In this document: positions 1 to 23,618 of the stretch, piece after piece
How the letters are laid out: each line of letters starts with the position of its first letter
Numbering within the stretch: position 1 is the first letter of the stretch
IMG/VR virus record: IMGVR_UViG_3300022591_000061
Span: 1 to 26,018 of that record
Length of the DNA: 26,018 nt
Origin: a virus
Reading direction: 5' to 3' (one strand)
The notes under the pieces: model-generated
What the model was told of the DNA's origin: nothing
The model's input: only the letters and a program-made list of their open reading frames with translations
Databases searched by the model: none
Program-made: the position numbers and the translations under genes

Positions 1-153
1 ATGATCTAAAAAATTATGCTCGTCGTTAGATAACTGTTGATTATTTACTTGACTAATCAACCCTTGTAATTTTCCATCAATCAACGGAAACACTCGATTA
101 AAGTTCAAATATGTTTCGCTATATTCAGCGGGTAGAGATAATATTTGGGTCAT
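1..153 (-). CDS. N-terminal fragment of an unrecognised protein, cut by the left edge
   Basis: The minus strand reads open from an ATG at 153-151 to the window edge, giving 51 codons that begin MTQILSLPAEY and contain no stop. I do not recognise the family, and too little is visible for a domain call. The reason to accept it as a real gene is the perfect late-promoter octamer TATAAATA on the same strand at 187-180, which would give a leader of about 20 bases. No clear Shine-Dalgarno sequence lies before the ATG. The gene diverges from the radical SAM gene that starts at 190, so the 36 bases between them must carry both promoters. Confidence 0.6.
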   Translation of the reverse strand, partial: MTQILSLPAEYSETYLNFNRVFPLIDGKLQGLISQVNNQQLSNDEHNFLDH

Positions 154-179
154 GTTTATAAACTAGTAAATAGATATGA

Positions 180-187
180 TATTTATA
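180..187 (-). promoter_or_regulatory. T4-like late promoter octamer for the left-edge gene
   Basis: The minus strand has a perfect TATAAATA, the -10 element recognised by T4-type late sigma (gp55 family). The expected start site is about position 174, which is 21 bases before the ATG at 153. Confidence 0.55.
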
Positions 188-189
188 GT

Positions 190-1269
190 ATGTTTACATT
201 CAAAGAACTCAAACAAATCCATTTGGAAATCACCAACAATTGCCAGTCCAGTTGTCCTATGTGCAGCCGAAATATACACGGCGGTATAGACAATCCTTTA
301 TTAATGTTAAATTCGTGGTCTCTGGATATGTTTAAAACTATAATGACTCCTGCGGTCTTAGCGCAATTAGAAAGCTATTACTTCTGCGGTAACTTTGGCG
401 ATCCATTACTTAACAATGATCTTATAGCTATGTGCGAGTACTCCACTGGTGTAGCACCTAACACAGGAATACGCATACATACCAATGGTAGTTTACGTTC
501 AAATGATTGGTGGCGGCGACTTGCGCAGGTATTGCCTAAGAACCATCTCGTAATATTTGCGTTAGACGGATTAGCTGATACTCACAGTTTTTATAGAGTT
601 GGTACAGACTATAACCAAATATTACGCAACGCCAAAACATTTATTGATGCTGGCGGACGAGCTGAATGGGCATTTATTAGATTTAAACATAACGAACATC
701 AAATTGAAGAAGCACGAGCTCTTGCTACTAAGATGAAATTTGAAAAGTTTGTTATGAAAGACAGTTCTAGATTTTTGTTAGACAAACAATATGCTGTTTA
801 TAATAAGTACAATCAAATAACTCATCATCTTGAACCGTCGGTATATAGTGAAATTAAGTTTATAGATAGAAAAACAATTAGCAATTATAAATCAATTGTA
901 GCCAATGCAGAAATACGTTGTCAAGCACTAGATTCAAAAGAAGTTTATATTGATGCGTTTGGGCGACTGTTCCCTTGTTGTTATCTAGCAATGATTCCTT
1001 ATGTGCCGCTAGATATAGAATTTGAAATCACTGCTATCAGAACTGAAATACTAAAAGAATACAGAGCATTGGTTCAAGACTTAGGCGGGAGTGATGCCAT
1101 TGATGCTACAAAATACTCAGTCAAAGATATAATTAATTCTCAACCATATCAAACTGTGTGGCACAAATACTGGAATGAAGAAAAATTAATTACTTGTACT
1201 AGAAGTTGTGGTATTACTACAGATTTTTCTAATCCAAGAGATCAGTTTACCAGTGACGAATCACTATAA
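190..1269 (+). CDS. Radical SAM protein with C-terminal auxiliary-cluster cysteines (family A)
   Basis: This 359-residue radical SAM enzyme would bind a [4Fe-4S] cluster and cleave S-adenosylmethionine to form a radical; its substrate is unknown. The CxxxCxxC cluster motif is CQSSCPMC (C18, C22, C25). It is followed by a GNFGDPLL segment (about 68-74) where many relatives have GGEP, by HTNGS (97-101), and by ALDGL (124-128). The C-terminal half has C244, a CC pair at 263-264 after a DAFGRLFP segment, and C336/C340, which resembles a SPASM/twitch domain binding extra Fe-S. I chose the ATG at 190 because the upstream TTG at 145 would add 15 unconserved residues across the divergent promoter. 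It is a clear paralogue of the gene at 10421-11512, sharing FKHNEHQ and the overall motif order. Its last 23 bases overlap the convergent gene. Confidence 0.88.
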   Translation: MFTFKELKQIHLEITNNCQSSCPMCSRNIHGGIDNPLLMLNSWSLDMFKTIMTPAVLAQLESYYFCGNFGDPLLNNDLIAMCEYSTGVAPNTGIRIHTNGSLRSNDWWRRLAQVLPKNHLVIFALDGLADTHSFYRVGTDYNQILRNAKTFIDAGGRAEWAFIRFKHNEHQIEEARALATKMKFEKFVMKDSSRFLLDKQYAVYNKYNQITHHLEPSVYSEIKFIDRKTISNYKSIVANAEIRCQALDSKEVYIDAFGRLFPCCYLAMIPYVPLDIEFEITAIRTEILKEYRALVQDLGGSDAIDATKYSVKDIINSQPYQTVWHKYWNEEKLITCTRSCGITTDFSNPRDQFTSDESL

Positions 1270-1912
1270 AATCTTTGGCAGGTAATTCACCAAGACCATC
1301 AATTACACCAGGATTTACCTTGAAGGTAACTTCTGTGTCGTTATAAGCAAAGTCTTTTATATGTCCATTTTTATTTGCACGATTCAACCACGGACTATAA
1401 ATTTTATCAAATACAAATCTAGCGTTATGTGTGTCAGGCATAGGTATAATAATGCTAACAGGATTGTCAAATGTTCCCGGCAGTAATAACTGCCTGACTA
1501 CTAACTGTATCCTGTCAGTTTCACCAAAATTTGCGGCACTATGTAAACGTCCAGCATTCATAGTGTACCAAACGCCTAAATCTGTTTCAAACATTTTGTG
1601 TGATTCTAGATCAATTAAAAATGCTTGTTCATTGACCAACGACACATGCCAGCGGTCGTCTATGTCAGCATGTACCCAATAATTAGTCCCGGGCGCAAGT
1701 TTAATTAATCGTGCTTCACCTATAGGTCCTGGTAGCGTGTTTAGAATTTCTTCCCAAACGGTATTTTCAAATTCTGGTTTAATTTGCCACGGGTCGTAAA
1801 AGAAATTGCCGGTTGGTTTATTCAGTGCTAACTTAAAATCAAATTTGGGCAAAAATTCCTGTGCCATTTTGAGTTGATTAACAGTGAGTGCGGTCTGAAT
1901 TTGGTTGATCAT
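1247..1912 (-). CDS. Aspartyl/asparaginyl beta-hydroxylase-like 2OG-Fe(II) oxygenase
   Basis: This protein of about 221 residues has the pattern of the aspartyl/asparaginyl beta-hydroxylase family of double-stranded beta-helix oxygenases. These enzymes use Fe(II), O2 and 2-oxoglutarate to hydroxylate protein side chains or small molecules. The proposed metal ligands are HAD (H81, D83) followed by DRWH, and H124 in GRLHSAANFG. R134 or R140 is the likely 2-oxoglutarate-binding arginine. The start is uncertain. The ATG at 1912 lies only 4 bases beyond a TATAAATA element, so a transcript from that promoter would begin at the ATG itself. An in-frame ATG at 1867 (MAQEFLP) is the alternative and would still keep all motifs. 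It is one of four oxygenase-like genes in the window and is encoded alone. Confidence 0.75.
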   Translation of the reverse strand: MINQIQTALTVNQLKMAQEFLPKFDFKLALNKPTGNFFYDPWQIKPEFENTVWEEILNTLPGPIGEARLIKLAPGTNYWVHADIDDRWHVSLVNEQAFLIDLESHKMFETDLGVWYTMNAGRLHSAANFGETDRIQLVVRQLLLPGTFDNPVSIIIPMPDTHNARFVFDKIYSPWLNRANKNGHIKDFAYNDTEVTFKVNPGVIDGLGELPAKDFIVIRHW

Positions 1913-1950: not shown

Positions 1951-2808
1951 ATGAACAGAATAAAAATTGCACCCTCTTATGATGCTACGTGGTTAGAGAC
2001 CGAACGTCCGCAACCGTTGTCTGACCTGGTAATTGAAGAACTTATACAAGAGTTACTTCCGCATCAATGGGGATATGAGATTACTGATAATCTATATACG
2101 CAGTTTAAGTCTGAAATGTCTGCTTGGTTGTTTAATAGTCAACTTAATCAAGTCTCTGGATTTGATACATTTGATCGCGTAGATATTATCAATGGTTGCA
2201 CTCAATTTATTGATACTGTCTATATGAAAGGTCCTGTGCAGACATTAAAGGGCGATTATAGATACCATAATAGATTAAATCCTAATCTGGTGTATAGTGT
2301 TCCTGGCTACTTGCGTAAAGGACTACCGCTAATTATAGCCATGCCTTTTCCTAGTACTGGAGATGTTCATACAGAAATGACGGAGATATTAAATGAATGC
2401 TTGGAATTGGCAATCCCTGTTCACATTGACGGGGCTTGGCTCACTTGTTCTCGGGATATTGTTTTCAATGTTGGGCATAGTGCTATTCGCAGTTGTGGTA
2501 TCAGTCTTAGTAAAGGTCTAGGCTTAGGCTGGAATAGGATAGGCTTGCGTTGGACTCGAGACACGGATACTGATGCTGTTACTGTAATGAACGAATTCAA
2601 TATGAATCTAAGAGCTCCGGTGATGATTGGACTACATTTTTTAAGAAACTTGCCGCCCGATTACTTATGGAATACTTACGGTCATTTATATTATAAAATT
2701 TGCCAGGACTTTGATTTGGCGCCAACTAAAAGCATTTATCTTGCTATGCGTAACGGACAACCGGTGGGAGTTAGTCCGCTAATAAGGTATTTACATGAAT
2801 CTGGTTAA
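1951..2808 (+). CDS. PLP-dependent aminotransferase-like protein (fold type I), short
   Basis: This 285-residue protein has hallmarks of fold-type-I PLP enzymes. LIIAMPFPSTGDVH is in the place of the usual NP-x-x-P-TG loop. PVHIDGAW holds the aspartate that contacts the pyridine nitrogen (D160). SLSKG (K188) holds the candidate Schiff-base lysine, followed by GWNRIGLRW with R196. The motif order and the D-to-K spacing of 28 are right for aminotransferases. At 285 residues it is shorter than the usual 380-450, mainly after the lysine, so part of the C-terminal small domain seems missing or replaced. I prefer the ATG at 1951; an ATG at 1924 would add nine residues (MLLLCIKKL) and lies within the divergent promoter. 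It is the first gene of a four-gene plus operon and overlaps the next by 14 bases, which suggests a coupled pathway. The amino acceptor is unknown. Confidence 0.7.
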   Translation: MNRIKIAPSYDATWLETERPQPLSDLVIEELIQELLPHQWGYEITDNLYTQFKSEMSAWLFNSQLNQVSGFDTFDRVDIINGCTQFIDTVYMKGPVQTLKGDYRYHNRLNPNLVYSVPGYLRKGLPLIIAMPFPSTGDVHTEMTEILNECLELAIPVHIDGAWLTCSRDIVFNVGHSAIRSCGISLSKGLGLGWNRIGLRWTRDTDTDAVTVMNEFNMNLRAPVMIGLHFLRNLPPDYLWNTYGHLYYKICQDFDLAPTKSIYLAMRNGQPVGVSPLIRYLHESG

Positions 2809-3532
2809 CGTAGATGGTATAAATATCCCATACGATTTAACTTGGCAGAATATTGCTGTCAGTATTAGCGGTGGCGCCGACAGCGCACTATTGGCATTTT
2901 TATTATGTGACATAATTGACAGCAACCAATTGGCAACTACTGTACATGTTATTAATCACACTCGTATGTGGAAAACTCGCCCATGGCAAAGATATGATAG
3001 CCAACAAGTAACCAATTGGCTAATCAGTAAGTTTCCTAATATTAAATTTGAGCATCATAATAATTTTATAGCACCCGATGTAGAGTATGGCAATATGGGT
3101 CCCACAATTACAGATGAGTATGGAAGAATGGTCAGCGGCGATAATGCACAACAACGTGCCTATGCAGAATACGTATGCTACTACAACGGTATAGATGCTT
3201 ATTATAATGCAGTCACTCATAATCCTAGAGGCATTGATTTAGGTGGCATGGTAGAACGAGACATTGAACGCAACAATACTAATGGACATTTAGAGTTTAT
3301 GATACACATGGATAGAGTTGCTAGCCATCCGTTTCGTTTTGTAGAAAAGTCCTGGATAGTTAAACAATACATTCGACTAGGTATTACAGACTTACTTGAT
3401 ATTACACGCAGTTGCGAAGGCGAGTTTGCAGATATAGATTATACAAATTATACTCCAGGGCAGTACGTAGGCACGTGCGGCACATGTTTTTGGTGTAAAG
3501 AAAGAGAGTGGGCAATTGAACAATCAAAGTAA
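2795..3532 (+). CDS. QueC-like PP-loop ATP pyrophosphatase
   Basis: This 245-residue protein has an N-terminal PP-loop, SISGGADS (S25-S30). That motif marks N-type ATP pyrophosphatases, which adenylate a carbonyl or carboxyl group before attack by a nucleophile. The C-terminus has C207 in DITRSCEG followed by C228, C231 and C234 (CGTCFWC), matching the zinc-binding cysteine pattern of QueC, 7-cyano-7-deazaguanine synthase. The HPFRFVEKSWIVK segment also fits the QueC family. QueC makes preQ0 from 7-carboxy-7-deazaguanine and ammonia, and phages use preQ0 for DNA modification. However, no QueD, QueE or FolE partner is visible here, so a related ATP-dependent amidation or ligation is equally possible. 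It overlaps the aminotransferase-like gene by 14 bases and the following radical SAM gene by 17 bases. Confidence 0.72.
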   Translation: MNLVNVDGINIPYDLTWQNIAVSISGGADSALLAFLLCDIIDSNQLATTVHVINHTRMWKTRPWQRYDSQQVTNWLISKFPNIKFEHHNNFIAPDVEYGNMGPTITDEYGRMVSGDNAQQRAYAEYVCYYNGIDAYYNAVTHNPRGIDLGGMVERDIERNNTNGHLEFMIHMDRVASHPFRFVEKSWIVKQYIRLGITDLLDITRSCEGEFADIDYTNYTPGQYVGTCGTCFWCKEREWAIEQSK

Positions 3533-4778
3533 AACATTTTGTATACATCCTTTTACAGGATTAGCAACTAGAGAAGACGGCGCTATATGTGCTTGCTGTC
3601 GTAGCCATCCCATTGGCTTTATTGACAAAGAACGACTGGAAGATATTTGGAACAACGATACAATGAAGCGTATCCGCCAACAGGTATTAAATGATGAACG
3701 TCCACCCGAGTGCGAGCCATGTTTTAGCCTAGAAGACCAAGGTGTTGAAAGTTTACGTATGCGTCATATTGCTGGCAAGATTCCCGAAGCACGTATTAAC
3801 TTGTATCCTACAGCATTAGATAACTTAGCAGATGATTATTCGATGCCGTTTGAAATTCCTACCATGGAATTAAAACTCAATAACTTGTGTAACTTAAAAT
3901 GCCGTATGTGCCACCCAATGGATAGCACCAGCTGGAATGACTGGAGCGAGATTAAAGAGTTTTATCAGCGTGAAGGTAATATCATGTACGATATTGTTGC
4001 TGAACACGATTTAGAAAATACACCAACATTAGACAAGTTTCAAGACAGTCCTGAATGGTGGGCTAGTTTGGAAAAGTTACTTCCACACTTTAGACGTGTA
4101 GAATTTGCCGGCGGTGAGCCCTTGATGGATCCACAACACTATCGTATATTAGATATGCTTGCCCCATATGGCGATCAAATTGAAATCAAGTACGCAACTA
4201 ACCTGAGTATGTTAGGTAAAGGTAAGCGTACCGTTTGGGAATACTGGCCCAAGTTTAAATCTGTTGCTGTTAATGTTAGTATTGATGGCATTGGTGATAG
4301 TTACAAATACATACGTGGTAATGCTGATTGGAATATTCTATTAGATAATATTCAACAAATACAAACTATACCCAATATCAGTCGTATTGTTGGCGCTGTC
4401 ACTGTACAAGTAAGTAACATATTAATCTTAGATCAAATGATTGAACTATTTTTAGATCAGTTAGGTATTGTATTCCATACCCATCGTGTAGCTTATCCTA
4501 ATGTATTAAGTGTACAAGTGCTACCACGTAAATTAAAAGAATTGGCTGTTAAAAGATTAATTAATATCGAAAAACGCTTGAAATCATTTAAGATGATCCA
4601 ACTACATCCAGAGCTGTTGGAATACACACGTGGGCAAATACAGGACAACATTAACTATCTAATATCCAAAGATCAAAGCCGATTGTGGTCTGATTGTATA
4701 GAGTTTAATCGTAGACTGGATGCTACCCGCAATCAAAGTTTCTTAGATGTGACTCCTGAATTTAAAGATCATGTATAA
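3516..4778 (+). CDS. Twitch domain-containing radical SAM protein (first of three)
   Basis: This 420-residue protein belongs to the 'twitch domain-containing radical SAM protein' type. Its auxiliary Fe-S cysteines precede the radical SAM barrel: FCIHPF (C9), ICACC (C25, C27, C28) and CEPC (C66, C69). The radical SAM motif CNLKCRMC (C125, C129, C132) follows, then AGGEPL and VSIDG. Its substrate is unknown. The start is TTG at 3516: no ATG or GTG is available between the in-frame stop at 3468 and this codon, and starting later would remove the conserved FCIHPF segment. A purine-rich AAAGAAAGAGAG run lies upstream. It overlaps the PP-loop gene by 17 bases and the next radical SAM gene by 8 bases, so the four genes at 1951-5697 are probably translated together. 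Confidence 0.85.
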   Translation: MNNQSKTFCIHPFTGLATREDGAICACCRSHPIGFIDKERLEDIWNNDTMKRIRQQVLNDERPPECEPCFSLEDQGVESLRMRHIAGKIPEARINLYPTALDNLADDYSMPFEIPTMELKLNNLCNLKCRMCHPMDSTSWNDWSEIKEFYQREGNIMYDIVAEHDLENTPTLDKFQDSPEWWASLEKLLPHFRRVEFAGGEPLMDPQHYRILDMLAPYGDQIEIKYATNLSMLGKGKRTVWEYWPKFKSVAVNVSIDGIGDSYKYIRGNADWNILLDNIQQIQTIPNISRIVGAVTVQVSNILILDQMIELFLDQLGIVFHTHRVAYPNVLSVQVLPRKLKELAVKRLINIEKRLKSFKMIQLHPELLEYTRGQIQDNINYLISKDQSRLWSDCIEFNRRLDATRNQSFLDVTPEFKDHV

Positions 4779-5697
4779 AGTAACAAGTCGCTGGCCGCAT
4801 CAAGATTCAATCAAAGTAGAATGGAACTTAGGAAAGCGTTGCAACTACGACTGTAGCTACTGCCCGGCGGTTATACATGATAACACTAGCGAACACACAG
4901 ACATTGATACATTAAAAGGTGCAGTTAATCAATTACTCAAAATAGGTAAACCTATACGTCTTAGTTTTACCGGTGGGGAGCCTTGCATACATCCACAGTT
5001 TGCAGAATTAATCAGTTATGCTAAAAATCAAGGAATCGGCTGGATCAGCGTAACAACCAATGGCACACGTCAACACGATTGGTATAAAGAGCAACGTGTG
5101 GATCAATATGTGTTTAGCCTACACTTTGAACATGACTGGCGCAGGGCATTAAACACTATAACTACCTTGTTTCAAACTGTAGAACAATATAACATACCAA
5201 CAAACATTATGGTCAATGTTATGGCACACCATAATCATATGCGTAAAGTCAAATTTGCTGTTGGAAAATTACAACACGATCAAGTACCATATGTTATACG
5301 TAGAATACGCTGGACCGAGGATGATCATAATGTGTTTGACGATTTACGTTATAATTTAAACGACTTAGAATGGATTACAGAACGTGAAGCTACTGTCAAA
5401 GCTAATTGCGTTATAAACGATAATCCTGTTAAAATGTATCATGCTAACGATATTATTAAGTTACATATGAATGAGTATAAGGGGTGGACCTGTGCGGCTG
5501 GCATTGAAAGTTTAATGGTCAACTGGGACGGTGATGTACATCGTGCTACTTGTCGTGTGGGTGGCAGTTTAGGTAATATCTATACGGGTACGTTTACTAT
5601 TCCCGCAGAACCCATTACTTGTACCCGCGATAATTGTACCTGCGCTGCTGATATACCACTTACAAAATATGCGCCAGCTCCGGGAATGTTGCCTTAA
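4771..5697 (+). CDS. SPASM-type radical SAM protein (family F)
   Basis: This 308-residue radical SAM enzyme has the motif CNYDCSYC (C24, C28, C31), FTGGEP (67-71) and TTNGT. A cysteine-rich C-terminus holds C241 in WTCAAG, C261 in RATCRVGG followed by LGNI, and C284, C289 and C291 (CTRDNCTC). This is the SPASM-like layout that carries extra Fe-S clusters, common in peptide- and protein-modifying radical SAM enzymes and in some sugar-modifying ones. It is a paralogue of the minus-strand gene at 12077-13039, which has matching cysteine positions. It is the last gene of the four-gene operon. The ATG overlaps the previous stop by 8 bases, and its 3' end overlaps the convergent gene by 38 bases. 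Confidence 0.85.
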   Translation: MYKVTSRWPHQDSIKVEWNLGKRCNYDCSYCPAVIHDNTSEHTDIDTLKGAVNQLLKIGKPIRLSFTGGEPCIHPQFAELISYAKNQGIGWISVTTNGTRQHDWYKEQRVDQYVFSLHFEHDWRRALNTITTLFQTVEQYNIPTNIMVNVMAHHNHMRKVKFAVGKLQHDQVPYVIRRIRWTEDDHNVFDDLRYNLNDLEWITEREATVKANCVINDNPVKMYHANDIIKLHMNEYKGWTCAAGIESLMVNWDGDVHRATCRVGGSLGNIYTGTFTIPAEPITCTRDNCTCAADIPLTKYAPAPGMLP

Positions 5698-7081
5698 AGT
5701 TTGTGCCGCGCTGTGCATCCATTGTGGTAATATAATCTTTAAAGTCTGGCAACAAATTAGTATGGTCTTCGGCATCCATCCAATCTAGTATGCCCTCCCA
5801 CCGTTTCCATCCGTAAGGATTAACTTCCCAAAATTCTTTGTCGTGTGTATAGTTTGTCCAGAGCCAGTCTTTTAGTTCAGCAAATAGATTTCGCACTTCT
5901 AACTTATCTTCTGCCGGCAATACACGTAGACTTAGCCAGGTTGGGATCCATAATAAATGTACCCCCACCAATCCTCCGCCCATAGTCTGTCCGCTAGCGT
6001 TAGTATCAAAGTTAATCTTTTTAAAGTTACTCTTAACTTTCCATTTAATGAAGTCTGGAACGTGTTTAATGTTTAGTATCTGTACTGCAAATGCTATATT
6101 AGTTTGTATGTTGTCCGGTGCTCGATCGAGTAAGTGTAAATTCTGCTCGACAGTTCCCCAATCTAAAGGGTAGCGTATGTAATGGCCACGTTCTTCCATG
6201 CCGTCTAGACTAAAACCAACTTTGACTTTACGGAACTTGCTCCACAAATCAATTATGTTTTCACTAATAAGTGTACCGTTAGTATTGTAACGTAATGTAA
6301 TCTTGTCTGCGTACCCACGTTCTACTATTTCTTCTAAGAAACGCCGATGTTCTTTAATTAGTAAAGGCTCTCCACCAGCAAAGTATAATTGTTTAATGTT
6401 AGGAATTTGATCAAATACTTCTTGCCAGAATTTAGGATTTTCGTGCCACACGTTATTAAAATCTTTTGAGTCCCAATTCATTTGTTTTTGAATTAGCGGG
6501 CTTTGGAATAACGGATATACTTTTTTATACTCAGGTACCCACATACTGCTGTCATGCGGACTACACATGATACACTTTAAATTACAAGTATGCCCTAAAC
6601 GTAAATCTAGGTACTGTAATTTATAAGGGATACTACCATCTTCTTTTGTTTGCTTAATAAGTTCTGGAATATCGATACCTTCTTGTAAATGCCAAGTTCC
6701 TGTTTCCCAAATACGTTTACTGGCAATGCCCTGTTGTTCTTCTTTAAAACATTTAGTACAACTGGCCGGTATTTCCCCAGCTAGCATTGTTCTACGAACC
6801 GATTTCATGTAATCGTTATTAAATGCTTCGGTAGGTAAATCGTGAGCAAAGTTAGCAGGCGTACCATCTTCCATCTTAACTAATCCTACAGTATAATCGC
6901 CGGACTCTGCACCACTTGCATTTGCTACACAACAGATACGCATGTCACCATTTGGGCGTGTTGCTAAATGTATCCAAGGTAGTACACAAAAGCTAGGACT
7001 ACCCGATATGTCCGCTAATTGTTGTTGCCACTTACCTAATTGTGTTTCTTCTGGTTGTAACCAAAATACTTTATTTGTCAT
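5660..7081 (-). CDS. Twitch domain-containing radical SAM protein (second of three)
   Basis: This 473-residue relative of the protein at 3516-4778 has the same architecture. N-terminal auxiliary-cluster cysteines are FCVLPW (C32), RICC (C50, C51) and CTKC (C108, C111). The radical SAM CNLKCIMC (C166, C170, C173), AGGEPLL (about 235-241), NTNGT and FSLDGM follow. The C-terminus ends in a conserved PDFKDYI...RGTNFKATFPEL region, also seen in the gene at 14091-15530 as RRGTNFAETFPEM. This conserved tail probably marks the complete family length. It shares an ATGA overlap with the upstream sulfotransferase-like gene, so the two should be co-translated. The two proteins may act on the same substrate. 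Confidence 0.88.
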   Translation of the reverse strand: MTNKVFWLQPEETQLGKWQQQLADISGSPSFCVLPWIHLATRPNGDMRICCVANASGAESGDYTVGLVKMEDGTPANFAHDLPTEAFNNDYMKSVRRTMLAGEIPASCTKCFKEEQQGIASKRIWETGTWHLQEGIDIPELIKQTKEDGSIPYKLQYLDLRLGHTCNLKCIMCSPHDSSMWVPEYKKVYPLFQSPLIQKQMNWDSKDFNNVWHENPKFWQEVFDQIPNIKQLYFAGGEPLLIKEHRRFLEEIVERGYADKITLRYNTNGTLISENIIDLWSKFRKVKVGFSLDGMEERGHYIRYPLDWGTVEQNLHLLDRAPDNIQTNIAFAVQILNIKHVPDFIKWKVKSNFKKINFDTNASGQTMGGGLVGVHLLWIPTWLSLRVLPAEDKLEVRNLFAELKDWLWTNYTHDKEFWEVNPYGWKRWEGILDWMDAEDHTNLLPDFKDYITTMDAQRGTNFKATFPELAHIL

Positions 7082-7710
7082 ATTGAATTTACTATTTGAG
7101 TTATTATATACTCATCTGGTATCCAAGTCAATACTTCTTCTAAATTAGTAACTGAATCCCAACTTGTAGTCATCCCCATTTTCATTAATGTGTCGTCCGG
7201 AGTCCAAGTCCATCCAAATTTAGATCCTATACTAGACCAGTCCTGGATTAGGGTATCAAAGTCTATACGCATTACTTGCCCAAACCCAAGGGCATCTGCA
7301 TTGCGATCAATTATACGTTGCCAACAGCGATAATACCAGTATGATGACATAAAAGAATCTTGTTCAAAATGTAAGCTGTCCGCTATGTAGTCTTTTCCTG
7401 GGTGCCATTTATTTGTAGCATTGAGAGCATTAATACTTAACAACCAACTAGCAAAGTCATTTCTAGTTAATATGATCAAGCACCATTCTTTAGGATCAAT
7501 AGCACTTAATATATTAGATATGTGGAATGGGTTAAAATTAGTAAATACCGCAGACTCTGCACGGTTAAATTGATCCCATTCTTCACTAGAATACTGTCCG
7601 CGATCAACAGCTGCTACAGTCAAACTGGTTTCCAGTAAGCTACGCTCAATATAGTTAAAAAAACTAGTACTGGCAGTTCTGCCCGGGGTGCTGATTAAAA
7701 ACTTCTTCAT
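7078..7710 (-). CDS. Sulfotransferase-like protein
   Basis: This 210-residue protein begins with a short beta strand and a loop, STPGRTASTSFFNY (7-20). It resembles the 5'-phosphosulfate-binding loop of PAPS-dependent sulfotransferases, which often reads PRTGST. IILTRNDFASWLLS (79-92, with R83 and S88) resembles the 3'-phosphate-binding segment. Such enzymes move a sulfate from PAPS to a sugar, lipid or protein hydroxyl. I rate the family as likely but not certain, since P-loop kinases share part of this pattern. The gene starts a two-gene minus operon and overlaps the twitch radical SAM gene by 4 bases. It diverges from the oxygenase gene at 7751 across 40 bases. A TATATAAT string directly abuts its ATG, too close to serve as its own promoter in the usual way. 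Confidence 0.65.
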   Translation of the reverse strand: MKKFLISTPGRTASTSFFNYIERSLLETSLTVAAVDRGQYSSEEWDQFNRAESAVFTNFNPFHISNILSAIDPKEWCLIILTRNDFASWLLSINALNATNKWHPGKDYIADSLHFEQDSFMSSYWYYRCWQRIIDRNADALGFGQVMRIDFDTLIQDWSSIGSKFGWTWTPDDTLMKMGMTTSWDSVTNLEEVLTWIPDEYIITQIVNSI

Positions 7711-7750: not shown

Positions 7751-8275
7751 ATGACCACTAAATTTATCAAAAATAACACAGAATGGGTCAATCAAGACTT
7801 GCTTACCAAAATAATAAACGGTACTGGAGAGCAACGTCCATTAATTGACGAACACGACGAGCCGTGGAAACGAGACCAATGGCAACGATGGCTCAACAGT
7901 GGCTATGATATGAAAGGTGTTAGCTGGAATATGTTCTACTGGCATCACTTAGGAATGAGCTCTTCAGAAGATTTGGTATTGCCAATTGATATCAAAGCAG
8001 ATCGTGTTGAATGGTGGTTTAGCAGGATCAATCCTTGTTGCGTATTTCCCATGCACGTAGATGCCTTTAAAACAGAATGTAAAAACTTTCGCCGCTTTAG
8101 TGTGCCTATGCAGGACTATGTTGATGGGCATATCTTTGTATACGAAGGTAAAAATTTAGAAGGATACAAAGCCGGAGATATATTTGAATTTGAGGATCCA
8201 AGAGCCTGGCACGGTGCTGGCAATATTAGTATGATTCCAAAAGTTAGTTTTCAGTTTGTTTGTTACGATTTATGA
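7751..8275 (+). CDS. Small 2OG-Fe(II) oxygenase-like protein
   Basis: This 174-residue protein looks like a compact double-stranded beta-helix oxygenase of the aspartyl/asparaginyl hydroxylase group. MHVDAF supplies H102 and D104 as metal ligands, and PRAWHGAGN supplies H154. Between them, YKAGDIFEF is the usual strand before the distal histidine. The expected 2-oxoglutarate-binding arginine near the C-terminus appears to be a lysine (K164 in IPKVSFQF), which may alter co-substrate binding. It is the first of five plus-strand genes at 7751-11512 and shares an ATGA overlap with the next oxygenase-like gene. The substrate is unknown. The protein contains a CC pair at 96-97, of no known role. 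Confidence 0.65.
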   Translation: MTTKFIKNNTEWVNQDLLTKIINGTGEQRPLIDEHDEPWKRDQWQRWLNSGYDMKGVSWNMFYWHHLGMSSSEDLVLPIDIKADRVEWWFSRINPCCVFPMHVDAFKTECKNFRRFSVPMQDYVDGHIFVYEGKNLEGYKAGDIFEFEDPRAWHGAGNISMIPKVSFQFVCYDL

Positions 8276-9051
8276 TACGCGGAATTAACAATCAGCCGTA
8301 CTTAAACTTAGATCCTTACTTTGATATAGAAGGACTTAAACTTTTACACAATAAGATATGTAAGGGAATTGTACTATCCAAACATAAAAAAGAAGGCAAC
8401 ATAGTCGAGCCTGGTGGATTTAACAACGCATACGAGTTATCGTTTAAGCCCTTATTCAAAGCTGTACAAGAATACGAAGCACTAAACGAAGATCATGAAA
8501 TTAAAGTATTAGGTAGAGAAATTGGTGAGTGGAAAAATCGTGATCAGTTTGTTTTGTTTCTTAAACTTGTGCTGGGTGCGTACGATCCTTATCAGTTTAT
8601 ATTCATTAAAACAGAAGATGGCGGGTGGGAAAATAGATTTGAAGAAAAAGCATGGACCAAGGATGCTGAATTATTTCCAGAGTTACGTATTTGGTTAGAA
8701 CAATTAGTACCTACTGTGTTTACACATCTTGGCCGTATAATAATTTTTAAAGCAGAACACGATTGTATAATGCCAATGCACAGAGATTTAATTCTGCCAG
8801 AGGAAATTGAATATTCCAATCATAGACACGAGTTCATACATTTACGTACAAGTTTAGATAAACCATTTTACATGTGGGATTCAGAAACAGATACAAAAAT
8901 ATTAACTGATAGTCATGCAACATTCTTCAATGATCAAGACTGGCATGCCGGCGGTCGTACAAATAAACAAACATACAGTATACGTGTTGACGGAATCTTT
9001 GCAGAAGAATTTAGACAACGCATTGGTATAAGTCACCTGGAACATTATTAA
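8272..9051 (+). CDS. 2OG-Fe(II) oxygenase-like protein
   Basis: This 259-residue protein has the oxygenase facial triad pattern. MHRD gives H170 and D172. DQDWHAGG gives H225 as the distal histidine. SIRVD gives R238 as the likely 2-oxoglutarate-binding arginine. An RTSLDKPFYMWD segment lies between them, as in aspartyl/asparaginyl hydroxylase-like proteins. About 150 residues of unassigned N-terminal sequence precede the catalytic domain and could bind the substrate. I chose the ATG at 8272, which overlaps the preceding stop as ATGA; a TTG four codons upstream is less likely. Translation coupling to the oxygenase before it suggests that the two act on the same target. One base separates it from the next gene. 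Confidence 0.7.
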   Translation: MIRGINNQPYLNLDPYFDIEGLKLLHNKICKGIVLSKHKKEGNIVEPGGFNNAYELSFKPLFKAVQEYEALNEDHEIKVLGREIGEWKNRDQFVLFLKLVLGAYDPYQFIFIKTEDGGWENRFEEKAWTKDAELFPELRIWLEQLVPTVFTHLGRIIIFKAEHDCIMPMHRDLILPEEIEYSNHRHEFIHLRTSLDKPFYMWDSETDTKILTDSHATFFNDQDWHAGGRTNKQTYSIRVDGIFAEEFRQRIGISHLEHY

Positions 9052-9052
9052 T

Positions 9053-9772
9053 ATGGAATGGGATTATTACTATAATTTAGAAGGTGGTGAGCAAGTTCGT
9101 GCTAACTTGGTTTATACTCCATATGTAAGTGTTGATAAAAAAACATTCTGCATGAGTTTTAACAGAGACCCAGGGTATCATTCAGATAGTGACGAAAATG
9201 CACAATGGAACGATGACTTGTTAACGGAAAGATTTAATCGCGAACTTGAATTTTATTTCCGTGCTGGCAAAACTATGCCTACGTTAAAAATCATTGACTT
9301 AGACATACGGGCTAGAAAAATCTACTTAGAGTGGCATGGCGATGATTTTTATATGCAAGGCTACATGAATGGCGGATTTGGTCGTGTACTCCCAGACTGG
9401 CAAGAACAGTGGTTAACCAGAATGGAACAAATGTGGAATGCTGGTATTGTAAAAATGAGTTTGCATCCGAACAGTTGGGTGTCTAAAGACGGAGTACTAG
9501 TACCATTCAATTGGTTCTTTAGTTATTGCGACTCCGAACAAGTTGTTATACGTGATGTTCTGCAACAAATTAGCCCAGGTCGTCAAGAAAAGTTAAGTAA
9601 AGTATTATCTTCTGCTGGCATGGATGTAGATACTCCTTATAATGCCAAATATCTACAGCGTATTACCTTTGACAGCTTTAGATCAAACTATCCTGCAGAT
9701 TTAATAGATCGAGCATTAAAATTACAGTTAGGAGATCACAATGTCCATAGCATTCTTACCGATAACTATTGA
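9053..9772 (+). CDS. Unrecognised protein within the oxygenase operon
   Basis: I do not recognise this 239-residue acidic protein with confidence. It is rich in Tyr, Trp and Asp and has no signal peptide or membrane segment. Two stretches faintly recall a degenerate kinase or phosphotransferase fold. One is an RFNRELEFYF segment followed by LKIIDLD. The other is KMSLHPNSWVSKDG followed by a hydrophobic PFNWFF, in the place where the catalytic loop and metal-binding segment would fall. The key catalytic aspartates are not convincing, so an enzyme call would be speculation. It lies one base after one oxygenase-like gene and overlaps the next by 32 bases, so it probably works with them, perhaps as a substrate-binding partner. 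Confidence 0.7.
   Translation: MEWDYYYNLEGGEQVRANLVYTPYVSVDKKTFCMSFNRDPGYHSDSDENAQWNDDLLTERFNRELEFYFRAGKTMPTLKIIDLDIRARKIYLEWHGDDFYMQGYMNGGFGRVLPDWQEQWLTRMEQMWNAGIVKMSLHPNSWVSKDGVLVPFNWFFSYCDSEQVVIRDVLQQISPGRQEKLSKVLSSAGMDVDTPYNAKYLQRITFDSFRSNYPADLIDRALKLQLGDHNVHSILTDNY
9730..9735 (+). promoter_or_regulatory. Strong ribosome binding site inside the preceding gene
   Basis: AGGAGA lies 5 bases before the ATG at 9741. This fixes the start of the next gene despite its 32-base overlap with the previous one. It is the clearest Shine-Dalgarno sequence I found in the accessory half. Confidence 0.65.
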
Positions 9773-10424
9773 TGTAAGACTTCCCAACGAAGAACTCTTA
9801 CTTGAATTTTGCAAGCAATATAAAATAAGAACAACTGCAAAAGACGGGCATAGTTCTTGGTGGGACTTTACTCCTGTGCTCATGCGAGCCACAGAAGAAG
9901 AAGTTTATGATGCTAACAAGTTAAAAGACATATTGGCCAATAGATATAATGCCGGCTTAGGTACTCCTAGATATCTAAATAACATTGATAAATTGTTTCC
10001 AGAAATTCCGTATATGCTTGAACAATTACCGTATAAGGAATTAACACTGGTTACCATAATGAAACAGATGAAGCCAGTTGATTATCATACCGATACTAAC
10101 GACTTTGACATACATTTAGATCCCACAGAAGTAGCATACGAACTAGAACCAAAACGCTATAACATATTACTAAACAAACATGAATACCAAGATTGTTTAT
10201 TTGTTGCAGATCAAATAGGCGGTACTAAAATATATCCCCGTATACCAAAAGAACGTCCATGCCATGTTATACCAGATCGAGTACACGCACACGGTGCTGA
10301 CTATTGCGGCCCTGATAAATTGATGCTATGTGTTATTGGCGGCATACTAGACAGAGAACTACATCAAACAATGATTCAAGACAGTCTAACAAAATATTCC
10401 AGCGAGGCTATAATATTCTCATGA
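9741..10424 (+). CDS. 2OG-Fe(II) oxygenase-like protein, divergent
   Basis: This 227-residue protein probably has the same oxygenase fold as the other members of the operon. DYHTDTNDFDIH gives H116 and D118 as candidate metal ligands. A RYNILLNKHEY segment follows, as in aspartyl/asparaginyl hydroxylases. DRVHAHGAD gives H182 or H184 as the distal ligand. Where the 2-oxoglutarate-binding arginine is expected (DKLMLCVIGG) there is only a lysine, so activity or co-substrate use may differ. The start is fixed by a strong Shine-Dalgarno AGGAGA. Its stop overlaps the ATG of the following radical SAM gene as ATGA, which suggests oxygenation and radical chemistry on one target. Confidence 0.6.
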   Translation: MSIAFLPITIDVRLPNEELLLEFCKQYKIRTTAKDGHSSWWDFTPVLMRATEEEVYDANKLKDILANRYNAGLGTPRYLNNIDKLFPEIPYMLEQLPYKELTLVTIMKQMKPVDYHTDTNDFDIHLDPTEVAYELEPKRYNILLNKHEYQDCLFVADQIGGTKIYPRIPKERPCHVIPDRVHAHGADYCGPDKLMLCVIGGILDRELHQTMIQDSLTKYSSEAIIFS

Positions 10425-11512
10425 CATTTTATAAAAACATTGTAGATATGGAAATTGAAAACAGCTCGCTGTGTAATGCTGCATGCCCTGCTTGTGCCCG
10501 AGAGCAAACGCCTGGAGATTATTCTTGGCTAACAGAAAAATATTTGAGTATTGATTTTTTTGATCGTATTCCTACTGGCGTATTACTAGGATTAAACAAA
10601 TTACTGTTTACTGGCACCATTGGAGATCCATGCACAGCTCCTAATTTAGTTGAAGTTATAAAAAGCATTAGACAACGTGCCCCTAACTTGTTTATATCCA
10701 TATCAACCAACGGTGGAATGAAATCATCAGGATGGTGGGCCAGTTTGGCTCGAGCACTTGGTCCTAATAGCGAAGTAACCTTTGCCATAGATGGACTAGA
10801 AGATACCAACGACATATATCGTGTAAATGTGCGGTGGAATAAGATTATAGCAAATACCAGTACATTTATTGCTGCCGGCGGGCAAGCACGTTGGCAATAT
10901 ATTGTTTTTAAACACAACGAACATCAAGTTAATCAAGCTAGGCAATTAGCCAATGACATGGGATTTAAATCTTTTGTAATGCGACCGAGCCATAGATTTA
11001 AAGTAGATGAATTTTTGGGCATCGATGGACGCTTTGGTAGAGATGGTATTCAAATTTTGCCACCTACTAATCCACAATTTGTACACAAAGTAATGATAGT
11101 GAAAAAAGAGGATTATGTCAGACCCGGGTCTGACATATGGTACTCCACGTCAAACGATACTAAAATAAATTGCTATGTAAAAGAAGCTGGATCAATATAC
11201 ATAGACTATCAGGGACGTATACTACCTTGCTGTTTTTTATCTGGCGGAGTATTTGTACGACGTAATGCGAAATATCCTGACGGGTGGGATTCAATTTGGA
11301 ATCAGTACGGCAATGACTTGGTTAACTTACACAACTACACGTGGGAAGAAATTATTAACTCAGAATTCTTTAAACAAATAGAAGCAAGCTGGACCAAGAG
11401 TTATAAAGATGGTAGACTGTTAACCTGTGCTGGAACTTGTAGTGAGTTTAAGGGTAGACTAAACAACCCTGAAGAGTTTTGTAACGAAGAAACTACGCAC
11501 TTTGACCAATAA
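10421..11512 (+). CDS. Radical SAM protein (family A paralogue)
   Basis: This 363-residue radical SAM protein is closely related to the one at 190-1269. CNAACPAC gives C18, C22 and C25 at identical positions. It shares the GTIGDP segment, STNGG, FAIDGL, the FKHNEHQ motif, and a C-terminal auxiliary region with INCYVKEA, a LPCC pair and LLTCAGTC. The preserved spacing means both copies should bind the same Fe-S clusters, while the variable C-terminal 100 residues may set different substrates. The ATG at 10421 overlaps the preceding stop by 4 bases; the reading frame extends upstream but those codons lie inside the oxygenase-like gene. It ends the five-gene operon and its tail overlaps the convergent methyltransferase-like gene by 20 bases. 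Confidence 0.87.
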   Translation: MTFYKNIVDMEIENSSLCNAACPACAREQTPGDYSWLTEKYLSIDFFDRIPTGVLLGLNKLLFTGTIGDPCTAPNLVEVIKSIRQRAPNLFISISTNGGMKSSGWWASLARALGPNSEVTFAIDGLEDTNDIYRVNVRWNKIIANTSTFIAAGGQARWQYIVFKHNEHQVNQARQLANDMGFKSFVMRPSHRFKVDEFLGIDGRFGRDGIQILPPTNPQFVHKVMIVKKEDYVRPGSDIWYSTSNDTKINCYVKEAGSIYIDYQGRILPCCFLSGGVFVRRNAKYPDGWDSIWNQYGNDLVNLHNYTWEEIINSEFFKQIEASWTKSYKDGRLLTCAGTCSEFKGRLNNPEEFCNEETTHFDQ

Positions 11513-12086
11513 TCATATATCTGGTATAGAGTTCAGTTGGTAGTTCGCCAACTGATAAAATATCAAGATGACTTTGTTCTATAAAATGATTTAAACTATT
11601 AGCAGGACGTATATGCTCGTCAACTAAAAAGTTATTACTTTGCAATACAATAAGACTATTAGCCGGCATACCCGATAGCCATAGATCGTAGTTGTCTTGG
11701 CTAATGTGCTCGCAACTGGTATTGATAATAACATCAGCACCGCTTCTGTAAGTTGTCATATCATGTGTGATAGCGCGAAAACGCCCTTGTATTTCTTCTG
11801 GCTTATTCATCATGGTAGCAACAGCTTCGCAACCGGGATCAATGTCTATACTTAATATCTGTGTAATAGGTATACCGCTTTGAAATAACATACTAGCTAA
11901 CACACCGGCCCATCCGCCGTGTATTTCAATTGAGACAGGATTTGTAATTTCTGACTGTAAATTTTCTATTAGCCACTCTTTACTACGAATCTGTCCTGCC
12001 CAGAAAGCATCTAGTGTACGAATAGGGTTAGGACTTTGGCGTATGGCCTGCATCCAGAAGTGTAAGTGATCAGTATCTATTTGCAT
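11493..12086 (-). CDS. Class I SAM-dependent methyltransferase-like protein
   Basis: This 197-residue protein fits a Rossmann-fold methyltransferase. IEIHGGWAG (53-61) is in the place of the SAM-binding glycine loop. ILSIDIDPGC (77-86) has the acidic end of strand 2 that usually binds the ribose. ADVIINTSCEHI corresponds to strand 4, often NPP- or NTS-like. It would transfer a methyl group from SAM to an unknown acceptor. The glycine loop is unusual (HGGWAG instead of GxGxG), so catalytic activity is likely but not assured. It overlaps the upstream radical SAM gene by 10 bases and forms a two-gene minus operon with it. Confidence 0.65.
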   Translation of the reverse strand: MQIDTDHLHFWMQAIRQSPNPIRTLDAFWAGQIRSKEWLIENLQSEITNPVSIEIHGGWAGVLASMLFQSGIPITQILSIDIDPGCEAVATMMNKPEEIQGRFRAITHDMTTYRSGADVIINTSCEHISQDNYDLWLSGMPANSLIVLQSNNFLVDEHIRPANSLNHFIEQSHLDILSVGELPTELYTRYMIIGQSA

Positions 12087-13039
12087 TTTGGTATTTTACT
12101 ATCTGCTGAGCTAACGCAACTTGGTGTTCCGCATATTTGTGGGCTAGTAAACAATTCAAAATTATCTATTGTGCCAAGTGGATAATCGTAACAACTGTAT
12201 CCGCGTTTAACTTCTGTTCCTCTTATTATAACACTTTGATATCCACTATTGCAACGCCACCGCGCAAATTGATTGAAACCAAAACTATTAAAGCGTTCGG
12301 CTTGATCTAAATAGTAGTCTTGCTTGCCATCTGTCAGACGGATTTGATAAATTGGTTGCGTATCAACTTGATATCCAAAATCTTCCTGCATAGCCTTAAA
12401 CATGTCTTTGGTGTAGCCGTCAACAATAAAACTAGCGGTAGGATCGCTTTGTGGTTTGAGTGTTACATTAATACCGCGTTTTTTTAATCTAGCACAGCGA
12501 TCGTATGTTGCCCAAAAATCATCTGGCACCATAACTTGATTTACAGTTACATAGACTCCTTCAGATTGTAACAACAAACACCTGTCAGCAAAATCGTTTT
12601 CAGTGGCAAACTCAGCATGAAAACTAGCAGTTATGCTCCTGCGTTGTAATAAACCAGTGTGTTCCAACCACGTTTTCCACCACTTCTGACCCGGTGATAG
12701 ATTAGTAGTCATATGTACACTTTGATAAGGTGTTTGTTCGCCGTCATCAAGGTATTTTATTAAGTCCAAAAAGTTTTTGTATGCGGTAGGCTCTCCGCCA
12801 CTGAAACTCCAATGGAACCGAGTAAATCCGTTACGTCTGGCTTGACGTTTGATTTCATCTATGGCACGGATGTAAACTTCAAGAGGCTGATGATCGGGTT
12901 CGCTGGATCTAGCGTAGGGCCAGCAATAGCTACAATTATAATTACAAAAACGACCTAATATCCAACTAACGGAAAAAAGATCCATGTCTAGCATAGTCTG
13001 CTGTCCAAAACGAGTAATATTTTGCCATGGGATTGTCAT
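12077..13039 (-). CDS. SPASM-type radical SAM protein (family F paralogue)
   Basis: This 320-residue radical SAM enzyme has CNYNCSYC (C32, C36, C39), SFSGGEPT and HMTTN. Its C-terminal auxiliary cysteines are C263 in RCNSG, C283 in RGYSCYDY followed by LGTID, and C303, C308 and C319. The order and spacing match the gene at 4771-5697 (C241, C261, C284, C289), so the two are paralogues on opposite strands. The family most often acts on peptides, proteins or sugars; the substrate here is unknown. It heads a two-gene minus operon with the methyltransferase-like gene. A GTTAAATA element ends exactly 5 bases before its ATG, and no Shine-Dalgarno sequence is visible. Confidence 0.85.
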   Translation of the reverse strand: MTIPWQNITRFGQQTMLDMDLFSVSWILGRFCNYNCSYCWPYARSSEPDHQPLEVYIRAIDEIKRQARRNGFTRFHWSFSGGEPTAYKNFLDLIKYLDDGEQTPYQSVHMTTNLSPGQKWWKTWLEHTGLLQRRSITASFHAEFATENDFADRCLLLQSEGVYVTVNQVMVPDDFWATYDRCARLKKRGINVTLKPQSDPTASFIVDGYTKDMFKAMQEDFGYQVDTQPIYQIRLTDGKQDYYLDQAERFNSFGFNQFARWRCNSGYQSVIIRGTEVKRGYSCYDYPLGTIDNFELFTSPQICGTPSCVSSADSKIPKCK

Positions 13040-14090: not shown

Positions 14091-15530
14091 TTAAATTTCT
14101 AATGTAAGTTTCTTACATTCGTTATAAAAATCCATCATTTCTGGAAATGTTTCTGCAAAGTTTGTACCACGTCTGCGATCGTGCTCGTCGCAAAATGCTA
14201 CAAAATCTTTTAGTAGAATTGGATCTGTTTTATCATTAAACAAGTATTGTATCCTATCTAACTTATTAACTTCGTCTGGAATAAATCCATCTTTGGAATT
14301 TGCTTTCATAAATTCCAATTGTTTTTGTATTTCATTTCTGTATGTTGTCGGTAGTATGCCAACGTTCATCCAATTTGGATAATTGAGATACGGAATATCA
14401 ATCATCACTATTCTCTGATCGTTATTAAATGTTCTTTTTAAATTTAATACGTCTTGTAAAAAATCAGTGTACGAAGTAACAGAAAATGCATTATACGTCG
14501 ACATGATACAAAAATACGCTGTAGGTATTTCTTTTAATAACTTAACACAATTTTCTAACCATTTGTTATAATCAAGTCCGTGTCGGATGTATTCTGCTTT
14601 AGCACCGTGAGCTTCGCAACTGGTGTATAATGTAAATGATCTAACAGCACGGGTGTCCTCAATGATTTTAATTTTTGCAATAAACTCATCAAACAATGCA
14701 TCAGGGACTACACAGTTCGAATTAATCGCCAATTCTATTTTAGGATTAGGATTTGCAATAATATAGTCTAGTACTTTAAAAGTGTGTTTACTCAGTAACG
14801 GTTCTCCGCCGGTGATACGAAACGTATATAATGATGGATATAGATCTGGCCACCATTTCCAAAAAGCATCGGTATACGGATTATCATCCTTTTCTGGAAT
14901 AGGCATTTTGTCTTGCATCTTAACCCAGTCCAAATTATTATAGTTTAGCGAGGTTGGGTATGGGCCTTGTTGTTTAATTTCTTCCATCCATTTGCTACTT
15001 ACTTCAGGATTGCAATAACTGCACTTAAAGTTACACACATTTGAAAAACTAACTTCAAGATAACTTGGATTGATATTTTTTTCTGCCCCAGCATCCATTA
15101 CTTCACTAAAATGGGGTAATGCCCATGGCTCTGAACTTTTTAATGTTCTATCACTAAAAACTATTACTTGTTCTGGTGCGCTATCCTCAACGTTCCAACA
15201 GTAGTGACACTCGCTTGGTCTGCCACCAGTTAACATTTCTTGTCTGGCACATTTTTTTATGCTAGTGTTGTGTAGTGCGCTAGGATCCACTGCTATTTCA
15301 TCTAGTGGTATTTTATGTGTTTTAGGGTGATGACAACTGTGGGTGTGCCCGGTACCTAAATGTAATGTAACTTGTTTCCATTTAGCTAAACACATACCCG
15401 GACCGATGCTATTAAGTTTCTTAAGTACGTTGTTTTTATTTACATTTTGTAACACGTAAATTACCTCTTTCCAATTTCTTACCCCTATTAAAAATCTGAG
15501 TGCTCGATTAATTTGCCATTTGATATTCAT
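14091..15530 (-). CDS. Twitch domain-containing radical SAM protein (third of three)
   Basis: This 479-residue protein has the radical SAM motif CNFKCSYC (C166, C170, C173), at the same residue numbers as the gene at 5660-7081. ITGGEPLL and an altered substrate loop (INSNC in the place of TNGT) follow. The N-terminal auxiliary cysteines are C47, C66, C94, C108 and C111; the CC pair of the other two members is reduced to one cysteine in HSCHHP, with histidines beside it. The last cluster may therefore have changed ligands. The C-terminal RRGTNFAETFPEM region is shared with the other long member. It is the last gene of a seven-gene minus operon and overlaps the glycosyltransferase-like gene upstream by 23 bases, which links it to glycan chemistry. 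Confidence 0.87.
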   Translation of the reverse strand: MNIKWQINRALRFLIGVRNWKEVIYVLQNVNKNNVLKKLNSIGPGMCLAKWKQVTLHLGTGHTHSCHHPKTHKIPLDEIAVDPSALHNTSIKKCARQEMLTGGRPSECHYCWNVEDSAPEQVIVFSDRTLKSSEPWALPHFSEVMDAGAEKNINPSYLEVSFSNVCNFKCSYCNPEVSSKWMEEIKQQGPYPTSLNYNNLDWVKMQDKMPIPEKDDNPYTDAFWKWWPDLYPSLYTFRITGGEPLLSKHTFKVLDYIIANPNPKIELAINSNCVVPDALFDEFIAKIKIIEDTRAVRSFTLYTSCEAHGAKAEYIRHGLDYNKWLENCVKLLKEIPTAYFCIMSTYNAFSVTSYTDFLQDVLNLKRTFNNDQRIVMIDIPYLNYPNWMNVGILPTTYRNEIQKQLEFMKANSKDGFIPDEVNKLDRIQYLFNDKTDPILLKDFVAFCDEHDRRRGTNFAETFPEMMDFYNECKKLTLEI

Positions 15531-17110: not shown

Positions 17111-17115
17111 AATAA

Positions 17116-21899: not shown

Positions 21900-21915
21900 T
21901 CTTTATCCTAATTGA

Positions 21916-23580: not shown

Positions 23581-23609
23581 TTGAATTCCTTTAGGTACTT
23601 AATATGTTA

Positions 23610-23617
23610 TATTTATG
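23610..23617 (-). promoter_or_regulatory. Late promoter of the second fibre gene
   Basis: The minus strand has CATAAATA, seven of eight bases of the late octamer. It predicts a start near 23604 and a leader of about 24 bases containing AAAGGA at 23592-23587. Spacing is normal for a late gene. Confidence 0.6.
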
Positions 23618-23618
23618 C

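Follow-up and report, generated by a model that had tools for sequence, protein, structure and literature searches.

What do four overlapping genes encoding a pyridoxal 5'-phosphate (PLP) enzyme, a QueC-like ATPase and two radical S-adenosylmethionine (SAM) enzymes do for the virus that carries them? The genes, here called P, Q, T and R, lie at 1951-5697 of the IMG/VR virus record IMGVR_UViG_3300022591_000061, whose 26,018 bases were analysed as a whole and are referred to as the window. A preliminary description of this DNA had taken them for one translational unit and for a plausible short pathway to a nitrogen-containing modification. Comparison with related viruses shows that they belong to a mix-and-match enzyme set carried near tail-fibre genes by many uncultured T4-like viruses, and the enzymes of this island probably serve to modify the virion or some other molecule at a surface.

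The four genes are the following:

1951-2808, forward strand: P, PLP enzyme; the open reading frame (ORF) opens at 1924, and the start at 1951 agrees with the start in the family
2795-3532, forward strand: Q, QueC-like PP-loop ATPase, 245 amino acids
3516-4778, forward strand: T, twitch-domain radical SAM protein, 420 amino acids, TTG start
4771-5697, forward strand: R, radical SAM protein, 308 amino acids

The ORF list of the window confirms the four genes and their overlaps of 14 (P/Q), 17 (Q/T) and 8 (T/R) bases. With regard to the proposed translational unit, the overlaps hold, while coupling appears no more than plausible, as the Shine-Dalgarno-like stretches at these genes are weak ones only. 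There is no in-frame ATG near the TTG of T, and T homologues start at about the same position; TTG is thus the putative, not a proven, start.

Recurrence and modularity of the gene set

A profile scan of virus contigs revealed 311 stretches encoding relatives of Q, of which the best 80 were kept, so that distant members are under-sampled; in a scan seeded with P, the best 80 of 191 stretches were kept. With the window (L001) and a duplicate record (L082) left out and identical Q proteins merged, 82 loci were reduced to 63, 61 with Q and two without, and the 80 P loci were merged to 66. A near-identical twin of the window (L002/L203) was retained in both sets.

Gene maps of the Q loci show a single recurring neighbourhood. 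Q, T and R follow one another in this order on one strand in 56 of the 61 distinct Q loci, and the full order P-Q-T-R is found in 35, which argues that the gene set exceeds chance. As each ORF was taken to begin at its first possible start, the overlaps counted in these loci are upper limits. P is present in 39 of the Q loci and missing nearby in 22, a figure that includes a few loci cut short upstream, since some end at the contig end. From the other side, the 66 distinct P loci contain T in 63 cases and R in 62, and Q in only 26 within 6 kb, with T being the gene directly after P in 27 and Q in 22. P is missing from the entire contig in four of 18 long Q contigs. Furthermore, 18 of the 40 P contigs without nearby Q were sampled; 10 gave no QueC-like match at E 0.001, and eight carried a remote QueC-like family, Q'.

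T-R therefore looks like the constant core of a modular island to which P and Q are optional inputs. The preliminary description had envisaged a single obligate pathway in which PLP chemistry, ATP-dependent activation and two radical steps follow one another. The 35 loci with all four genes in order are what such a pathway would predict; however, P and Q are each often missing beside T-R (P near 22 of 61 Q loci, Q near 40 of 66 P loci), and the same is seen along whole contigs, although the contigs may be incomplete. A fixed sequence of four obligate steps is thus unlikely, and as an explanation of the island it appears highly improbable. For the same reason, the assumption that P always accompanies Q was dropped (P missing from 4/18 long Q contigs, Q near only 26/66 P loci). 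A gene for a 404-amino-acid protein (21 loci, 11 with P) was considered as a substitute for P and rejected, being equally common with or without P and having no PLP-type match. In two loci, L083 and L084, P stands directly before T and Q is missing, which amounts to a natural Q-less operon.

The PLP enzyme and the radical SAM pair

P is a minimal fold-type-I PLP enzyme of 285 amino acids with an aminotransferase/C-S lyase fold. Its AlphaFold2 model has a mean predicted local distance difference test score (pLDDT) of 89.2 and matches structure 4dgt (VIA) with Z 18.8 and a root-mean-square deviation (rmsd) of 4.1 over 271 of 285 residues. D160, the PLP lysine K188 and R196 are each found in 38 of 39 aligned distinct relatives, the 39th having a gap. 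P thus has the fold and the lysine, aspartate and arginine that define the fold-type-I PLP aminotransferase superfamily, and shares them with aminotransferases and C-S lyases such as MalY, PatB, HisC and RohP. It differs from these in its small size and in having no Pfam aminotransferase match: Pfam gave no sensible match (E limit 0.1), Aminotran_1_2 (PF00155) included, whereas the HisC-like gene of locus L086 does match this family, and NCBIfam and PHROG gave no meaningful match. The top 50 structure matches span several reactions with close Z values, and the structure therefore does not tell which of them P catalyses; for this reason an arginine-oxidase role, as in RohP and MppP, both among the matches, was not assigned. 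A second, divergent P-like gene is found on the opposite strand in L002 (L002:53-973), L043, L045 and L065; L002 being the near-identical twin, its second P-like gene is located just upstream of the window start.

T scores 324.6 bits against NF033640 (N_Twi_rSAM, cut-off 170), and its CxxxCxxC motif is present in 61 of 63 relatives, the other two having gaps. R scores 43.9 bits against the radical SAM family PF04055 (cut-off 29.5), with CxxxCxxC and the C-terminal cysteines C241, C261, C284, C289 and C291 kept in 57 of 57 relatives. PADLOC matches of R, T and a further radical SAM protein of the window, A, to viperin were rejected as general radical SAM similarity.

Q is QueC-like without being a canonical QueC

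The AlphaFold2 model of Q (mean pLDDT 92.7) has its best structure match (VIA) in QueC (3bl5, Z 15.2, rmsd 3.7 over 178), followed by Cap9 (9nto, Z 13.7), TilS/MesJ (13.3) and QatC (9y01, 13.0). Moreover, hhalign aligns Q to a QueC alignment of nine sequences, from which L109 and L128 had been left out for want of a usable QueC ORF, with a probability of 95.9. The PP-loop SGGADS at residues 25-30 and four zinc-type cysteines, C207-(20)-C228-xx-C231-xx-C234, are present in 62 of 62 distinct aligned relatives. Scans with Pfam, PHROG and NCBIfam showed weak PP-loop/QueC similarity only, Q remaining below the PF06508 gathering score (13.3 versus 22 bits). Searches of solved structures by sequence with P and Q, as single sequences or profiles, returned nothing useful, so that the predicted folds alone were informative. 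Foldseek against viral models mostly returned QueC-annotated phage proteins at 9-19% identity (18 rows, E <= 0.001), and no nearer relative among these models. The conserved residues of P and Q and the confident models with the expected folds bear out part of the preliminary description, which had named two findings beforehand that would speak against it, a lack of co-occurrence in related phages and predicted structures without the PLP lysine pocket or the PP-loop; the genes co-occur in related viruses and both sites are intact and conserved.

Q has the SGGxDS loop of canonical QueC. Conversely, the canonical zinc motif, defined in the available text of PMC13329287 as C(x)8CxxCxxC, is not found, the first cysteine spacing of Q being 20 and not 8. 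Nor are the QueC motifs YxQxHxxE, VPxRN and YPDC kept: hhalign places V113-S-G-D-N at the VPxRN position and Q65 at YxQ, and YPDC is absent from the aligned region. Because VPxRN is replaced and YPDC is absent, Q is, judged by its motifs, not a canonical QueC, and the acid that it uses probably differs from that of QueC.

As far as the accessible parts of PMC11996544, PMC13279940 and PMC13329287 describe these enzymes, canonical QueC converts 7-carboxy-7-deazaguanine (CDG) to preQ0, Cap9 joins CDG to the N-terminus of a protein, and a similar reaction, in a changed pocket, has been suggested for QatC. Q has the PP-loop, the four zinc-type cysteines and the fold of all three (VIA Z 13.0-15.2), and is distinguished from them in being carried by viruses and in having radical SAM genes, and neither a CD-NTase nor QatB, as its associates. 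With Cap9 it has PF(x)4K and CE in common, but neither the YxD deazaguanine-recognition pair in the aligned region nor a nearby CD-NTase, both characteristic of Cap9 in type IV cyclic-oligonucleotide-based anti-phage signalling systems (CBASS), was seen, and a PADLOC scan gave weak QueC matches only. A comparison of Q with a two-sequence Cap9 alignment by hhalign gave no alignment, the sequences being too few. The long cysteine spacing recalls QatC, which has C(x)19CGxC and carries two Thr where Cap9 has its Tyr/Asp pair; however, a QatB-like partner was not identified, and Q is too short for the long N- and C-terminal extensions of QatC. Since Cap9 and QatC are QueC-fold enzymes that act on proteins, it is conceivable that Q is a protein-acting ligase as well.

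The viruses that carry the island

Radical SAM domains number 6-17 per contig in 18 of 18 long contigs, as counted from the per-record table, the match listing holding the best matches. Three of the 18 gave a match to gp23, the T4 capsid family. The DNA polymerase, portal, capsid, sheath, terminase and recombination genes of phage Mosig each have a counterpart in at least one of the contigs G001, G006 and G010, which are therefore T4-like by gene content. Among isolate phages, Q and T have no match, P has one only in Mosig, and R, for 31% of its length, matched an uncultured phage present in two records and nothing else.

A scan of genome contigs with the Q profile, the only one used here, covered 84,980 species of bacteria and archaea, each represented by a single genome, and yielded two remote relatives only, at 30% and 25% identity. 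Q is essentially virus-borne, and its near-absence from bacterial genomes argues against a recently borrowed host gene. One of the two relatives lies in a Bdellovibrionia assembly (L087:7794-15849), with Q-like, T-like, A-like, 2-oxoglutarate (2OG) oxygenase-like and, by reading, sulfotransferase-like genes, and adjoins apparently ordinary chromosomal genes (cysC/D/N-like, labelled by reading). The other lies on a contig that is filed as Chloroflexi but may be viral, where the Q-like gene is accompanied by amidinotransferase-like, HisC-like and twitch genes.

The surroundings of the four genes

The other genes of the window are these:

145-1269, forward strand: A, radical SAM protein with SPASM-like C-terminus (PF04055 26.3 bits, below cut-off; phrog_21308 E 1.6e-22)
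1247-1912, reverse strand: O, 2OG oxygenase-like (Asp_Arg_Hydrox, weak; PF05118 E 0.019, below cut-off)
5660-7081, reverse strand: t, second twitch radical SAM protein (NF033640 402.9 bits), its 3' end overlapping R
7078-7710, reverse strand: sulfotransferase-like, weak (Sulfotransfer_4 E 0.14)
7751-10424, forward strand: 2OG-oxygenase-like b, c and d, and u; no Pfam match, 2OG label by reading the sequences
10424-11512, forward strand: radical SAM protein
11493-12086, reverse strand: M, methyltransferase-like by reading, no Pfam match
12077-13039, reverse strand: R2, radical SAM protein
14091-15530, reverse strand: third twitch radical SAM protein (NF033640 340 bits)
15508-19389, reverse strand: four glycosyltransferase-like genes (weak label, by reading) and one gene of no assigned family (17116-17664)
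20061-25613, reverse strand: tail-fibre region, with a tail fibre at 23619-25613 and a virion/fibre-like protein at 21916-23580

Several of these families recur with the four genes: that of O, which is divergent from P, in 80 of 84 loci, that of t in 79, and those of b, c and u in 44, 45 and 55, respectively. In the glycosyltransferase-like block, which is also found in G006 and G010, one gene matches DUF5672 (E 0.0028) and one phrog_1903. PHROG matches in the tail-fibre region are phrog_8469, tail fiber (1.6e-17, 23619-25613), phrog_1800, tail collar fiber (9.5e-17), and phrog_14394 (2.4e-10), and 20061-21899 has no PHROG match.

Relatives of the window carry exchangeable cassettes. A gene for a 409-amino-acid amidinotransferase-like protein follows R with three small partners in 7 of 83 loci; its label comes from a match to a protein annotated as glycine amidinotransferase (30.2% identity, E 2e-24) and from the match between the CP220 and L086 genes described below. 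An independent scan with this gene found 52 loci (counted unmerged), of which 23 contain Q and another 10 contain P in the absence of Q. In L009:11467-13430, the cassette is made up of a 110-amino-acid protein, the amidinotransferase-like protein and two small proteins; it is common to P-Q-T-R loci, P-only radical SAM loci and contigs with neither detected. The second QueC-like family, Q' (L283-L287), is marked by TRSCEN/D followed by HCxxCWWCxER, and overlaps or closely adjoins a gene for a 477-513-amino-acid protein of no assigned family in 5 of 5 regions read. One of these regions has one or more TauD oxygenases, an AMP-binding enzyme and an Asp/Asn-hydroxylase-like gene close by, and its Q' passes the PF06508 cut-off with 37.4 bits. 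Additionally, L075:546-1604 and 15 other loci encode a radical SAM protein that bears a zinc ribbon of the pterin-methyltransferase type (PF23545), and on a Streptomyces plasmid (L126:1-1093) a QueC-like gene is flanked by genes for an Asp/Asn hydroxylase and a 2OG oxygenase, an arrangement that recalls the phage islands.

Related phage systems

T4-like phages rich in radical SAM genes have been described before, as have variable islands at tail fibres, which the accessible portions of three papers make clear (PMC2853527, PMC5332604, PMC7029224). The Campylobacter phages CP220 and CPt10, for which radical SAM genes and an amidinotransferase have been reported, are likewise T4-like; their genomes have 11-12 radical SAM genes, glycosyltransferase-like genes and an exchangeable block that contains the amidinotransferase (PMC2853527, in part). 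The amidinotransferase gene of CP220 matches a related gene of L086 (E 1.7e-17), and the radical SAM block of this phage, which includes remote homologues of A and R, lies near QueD (gp069), tail lysozyme and tail-fibre genes. It differs from the window in that neither a P-like nor a Q-like gene was found in the 40 kb examined and the twitch family T was not detected.

The host-recognition cluster of pelagimyophages, as far as PMC7029224 was available, is likewise a variable island at tail-fibre genes with radical SAM cassettes and 2OG oxygenases. That cluster lies between VrlC and the neck gene gp14. No gene of the window was identified as either of these, and tail-fibre genes adjoin the island there; tblastn from Mosig gave no VrlC or neck match in G001, G006 and G010, which is not evidence of absence. 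Mosig itself has a P homologue (E 1.4e-13) in a 2OG-rich island between tail-fibre genes, and a remote relative of A, but no Q homologue was found. The marine T4-like virus TARA_ERS488813_N000010 likewise has many radical SAM genes (12), although these were reported in an Fe-S cluster context (PMC5332604, accessible part). In the literature searched, neither the QueC-like family with a T-R core and optional partners was found nor, since the first report in 2010 (CP220: PMC2853527, in part), any tested function for radical-SAM-rich phage genomes. The earlier statement that no named phage pathway has this composition thus stands for the exact gene set and not for radical-SAM-rich phage modules as such, which have been in print since that year.

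A proposed tailoring island and its alternatives

The reading that we favour, with a probability of roughly 0.45, is that of a modular tailoring island of T4-like phages that decorates a tail fibre or a virion glycan or other surface component. The island would build a nitrogen-bearing decoration of unusual chemistry and attach it to a target that is most likely the tail fibre or another component of the virion surface. T and R, as their conserved cysteines suggest, would cleave SAM at a [4Fe-4S] cluster and, with auxiliary clusters, bring about a change at an unactivated C-H. Where present, P may add, remove or rearrange groups at an amino group, in keeping with its predicted fold and conserved active site, and Q, to go by its fold and motifs, may use ATP to adenylate a carboxylate and join it to an amine, a step that would come after P and the radical enzymes have shaped the unit. 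The product would then be diversified by the 2OG oxygenases, which some relatives supplement with amidinotransferases, an adenylation enzyme and additional enzymes of the QueC type. Tail-fibre genes adjoin the island in the window, and relatives of the fibre-region proteins do so in G006. A bolder, and doubtful, form of this proposal would make Q and Q' phage counterparts of Cap9 and QatC, QueC-fold ligases by which an acid tailored by radical chemistry and shaped by the PLP enzyme becomes attached to a tail protein, either at its amino end or on a side chain, with the chemistry swapped by exchange of the island cassettes.

Several points weigh against the tailoring island. In G010, the P-Q-T-R cluster (about 151-180 kb) is far from the glycosyltransferase/fibre block (10-26 kb), and a position close to tail-fibre genes may be no more than a sign of the variable region in genomes of the T4 type. 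As YPDC is not kept, the donor of Q cannot be read from its sequence. Lastly, QueD is found in 10 of the 18 long contigs (for instance G001:247048-247533), which leaves room for a nucleobase route. On that route, the island would make or install a modified nucleobase such as a 7-deazaguanine derivative, and QueC is indeed the nearest fold to Q. FolE is present in two of the contigs, one being G006, where it stands with QueE (G006:12374-14927; QueE phrog_2076, E 2.6e-50). The thymidine hypermodification of other phages, in which hydroxymethyl-dU kinase and aGPT-PPlase are the characteristic partners, also involves PLP and radical SAM enzymes. Nucleic-acid hypermodification nevertheless seems rather improbable, as canonical QueC (PF06508) over the cut-off and the DpdA model NF041059 were found in 0 of the 18 contigs (phage DpdA variants may escape this model), QueD is missing from the other eight (again, the records may be fragments), the CDG-recognition motif is absent from Q, and the island of the window adjoins tail-fibre genes and not replication genes. 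Deazaguanine genes without a detected canonical QueC are seen both in relatives of the window and in CP220.

Alternatively, the island could remodel the lipopolysaccharide or capsule of the host during infection by making a modified sugar or amino-acid substituent on a host glycan, for instance so as to exclude competing phages. Remodelling of the host surface has been proposed for the glycosyltransferases of the pelagimyophage cluster (PMC7029224, in part), and in Synechococcus phage S-SCSM2R, KdsA, KdsB and 2OG oxygenases adjoin an amidinotransferase. The window has glycosyltransferase-like genes too; however, this label comes from reading only, and sugar-nucleotide enzymes are few near Q in the loci examined, a short-chain dehydrogenase/reductase (SDR)/epimerase-like gene in 11 loci and an epimerase-like gene in G001 being both labelled by reading, so that this explanation appears unlikely. 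A diffusible small molecule, or a product akin to ribosomally synthesised and post-translationally modified peptides (RiPPs), acting against competitors or defences, would fit the natural-product-like mix of SPASM/twitch radical SAM enzymes, the amidinotransferase cassette and, in a relative, an AMP-binding enzyme and TauD oxygenases. Yet the window shows no precursor peptide, carrier protein or exporter, and its packed genes leave little room for them, which makes such a product quite improbable.

Implications for phage biology

The comparison turns the puzzle of radical-SAM-rich phages into a defined set, with a T-R core, optional P and Q, and exchangeable cassettes, and it singles out a family of QueC-like ligases whose fold is close to those of two enzymes that modify proteins in anti-phage defence. 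The chance that a new protein modification is at work here seems real, if unproven, and with the isolated phages Mosig and CP220 part of the question is testable now. If Q and Q' ligate tail proteins, tail fibres would carry a new class of post-translational modification, and should the tail fibre prove to be the target, phages would vary their host recognition through chemistry as well as through protein sequence.

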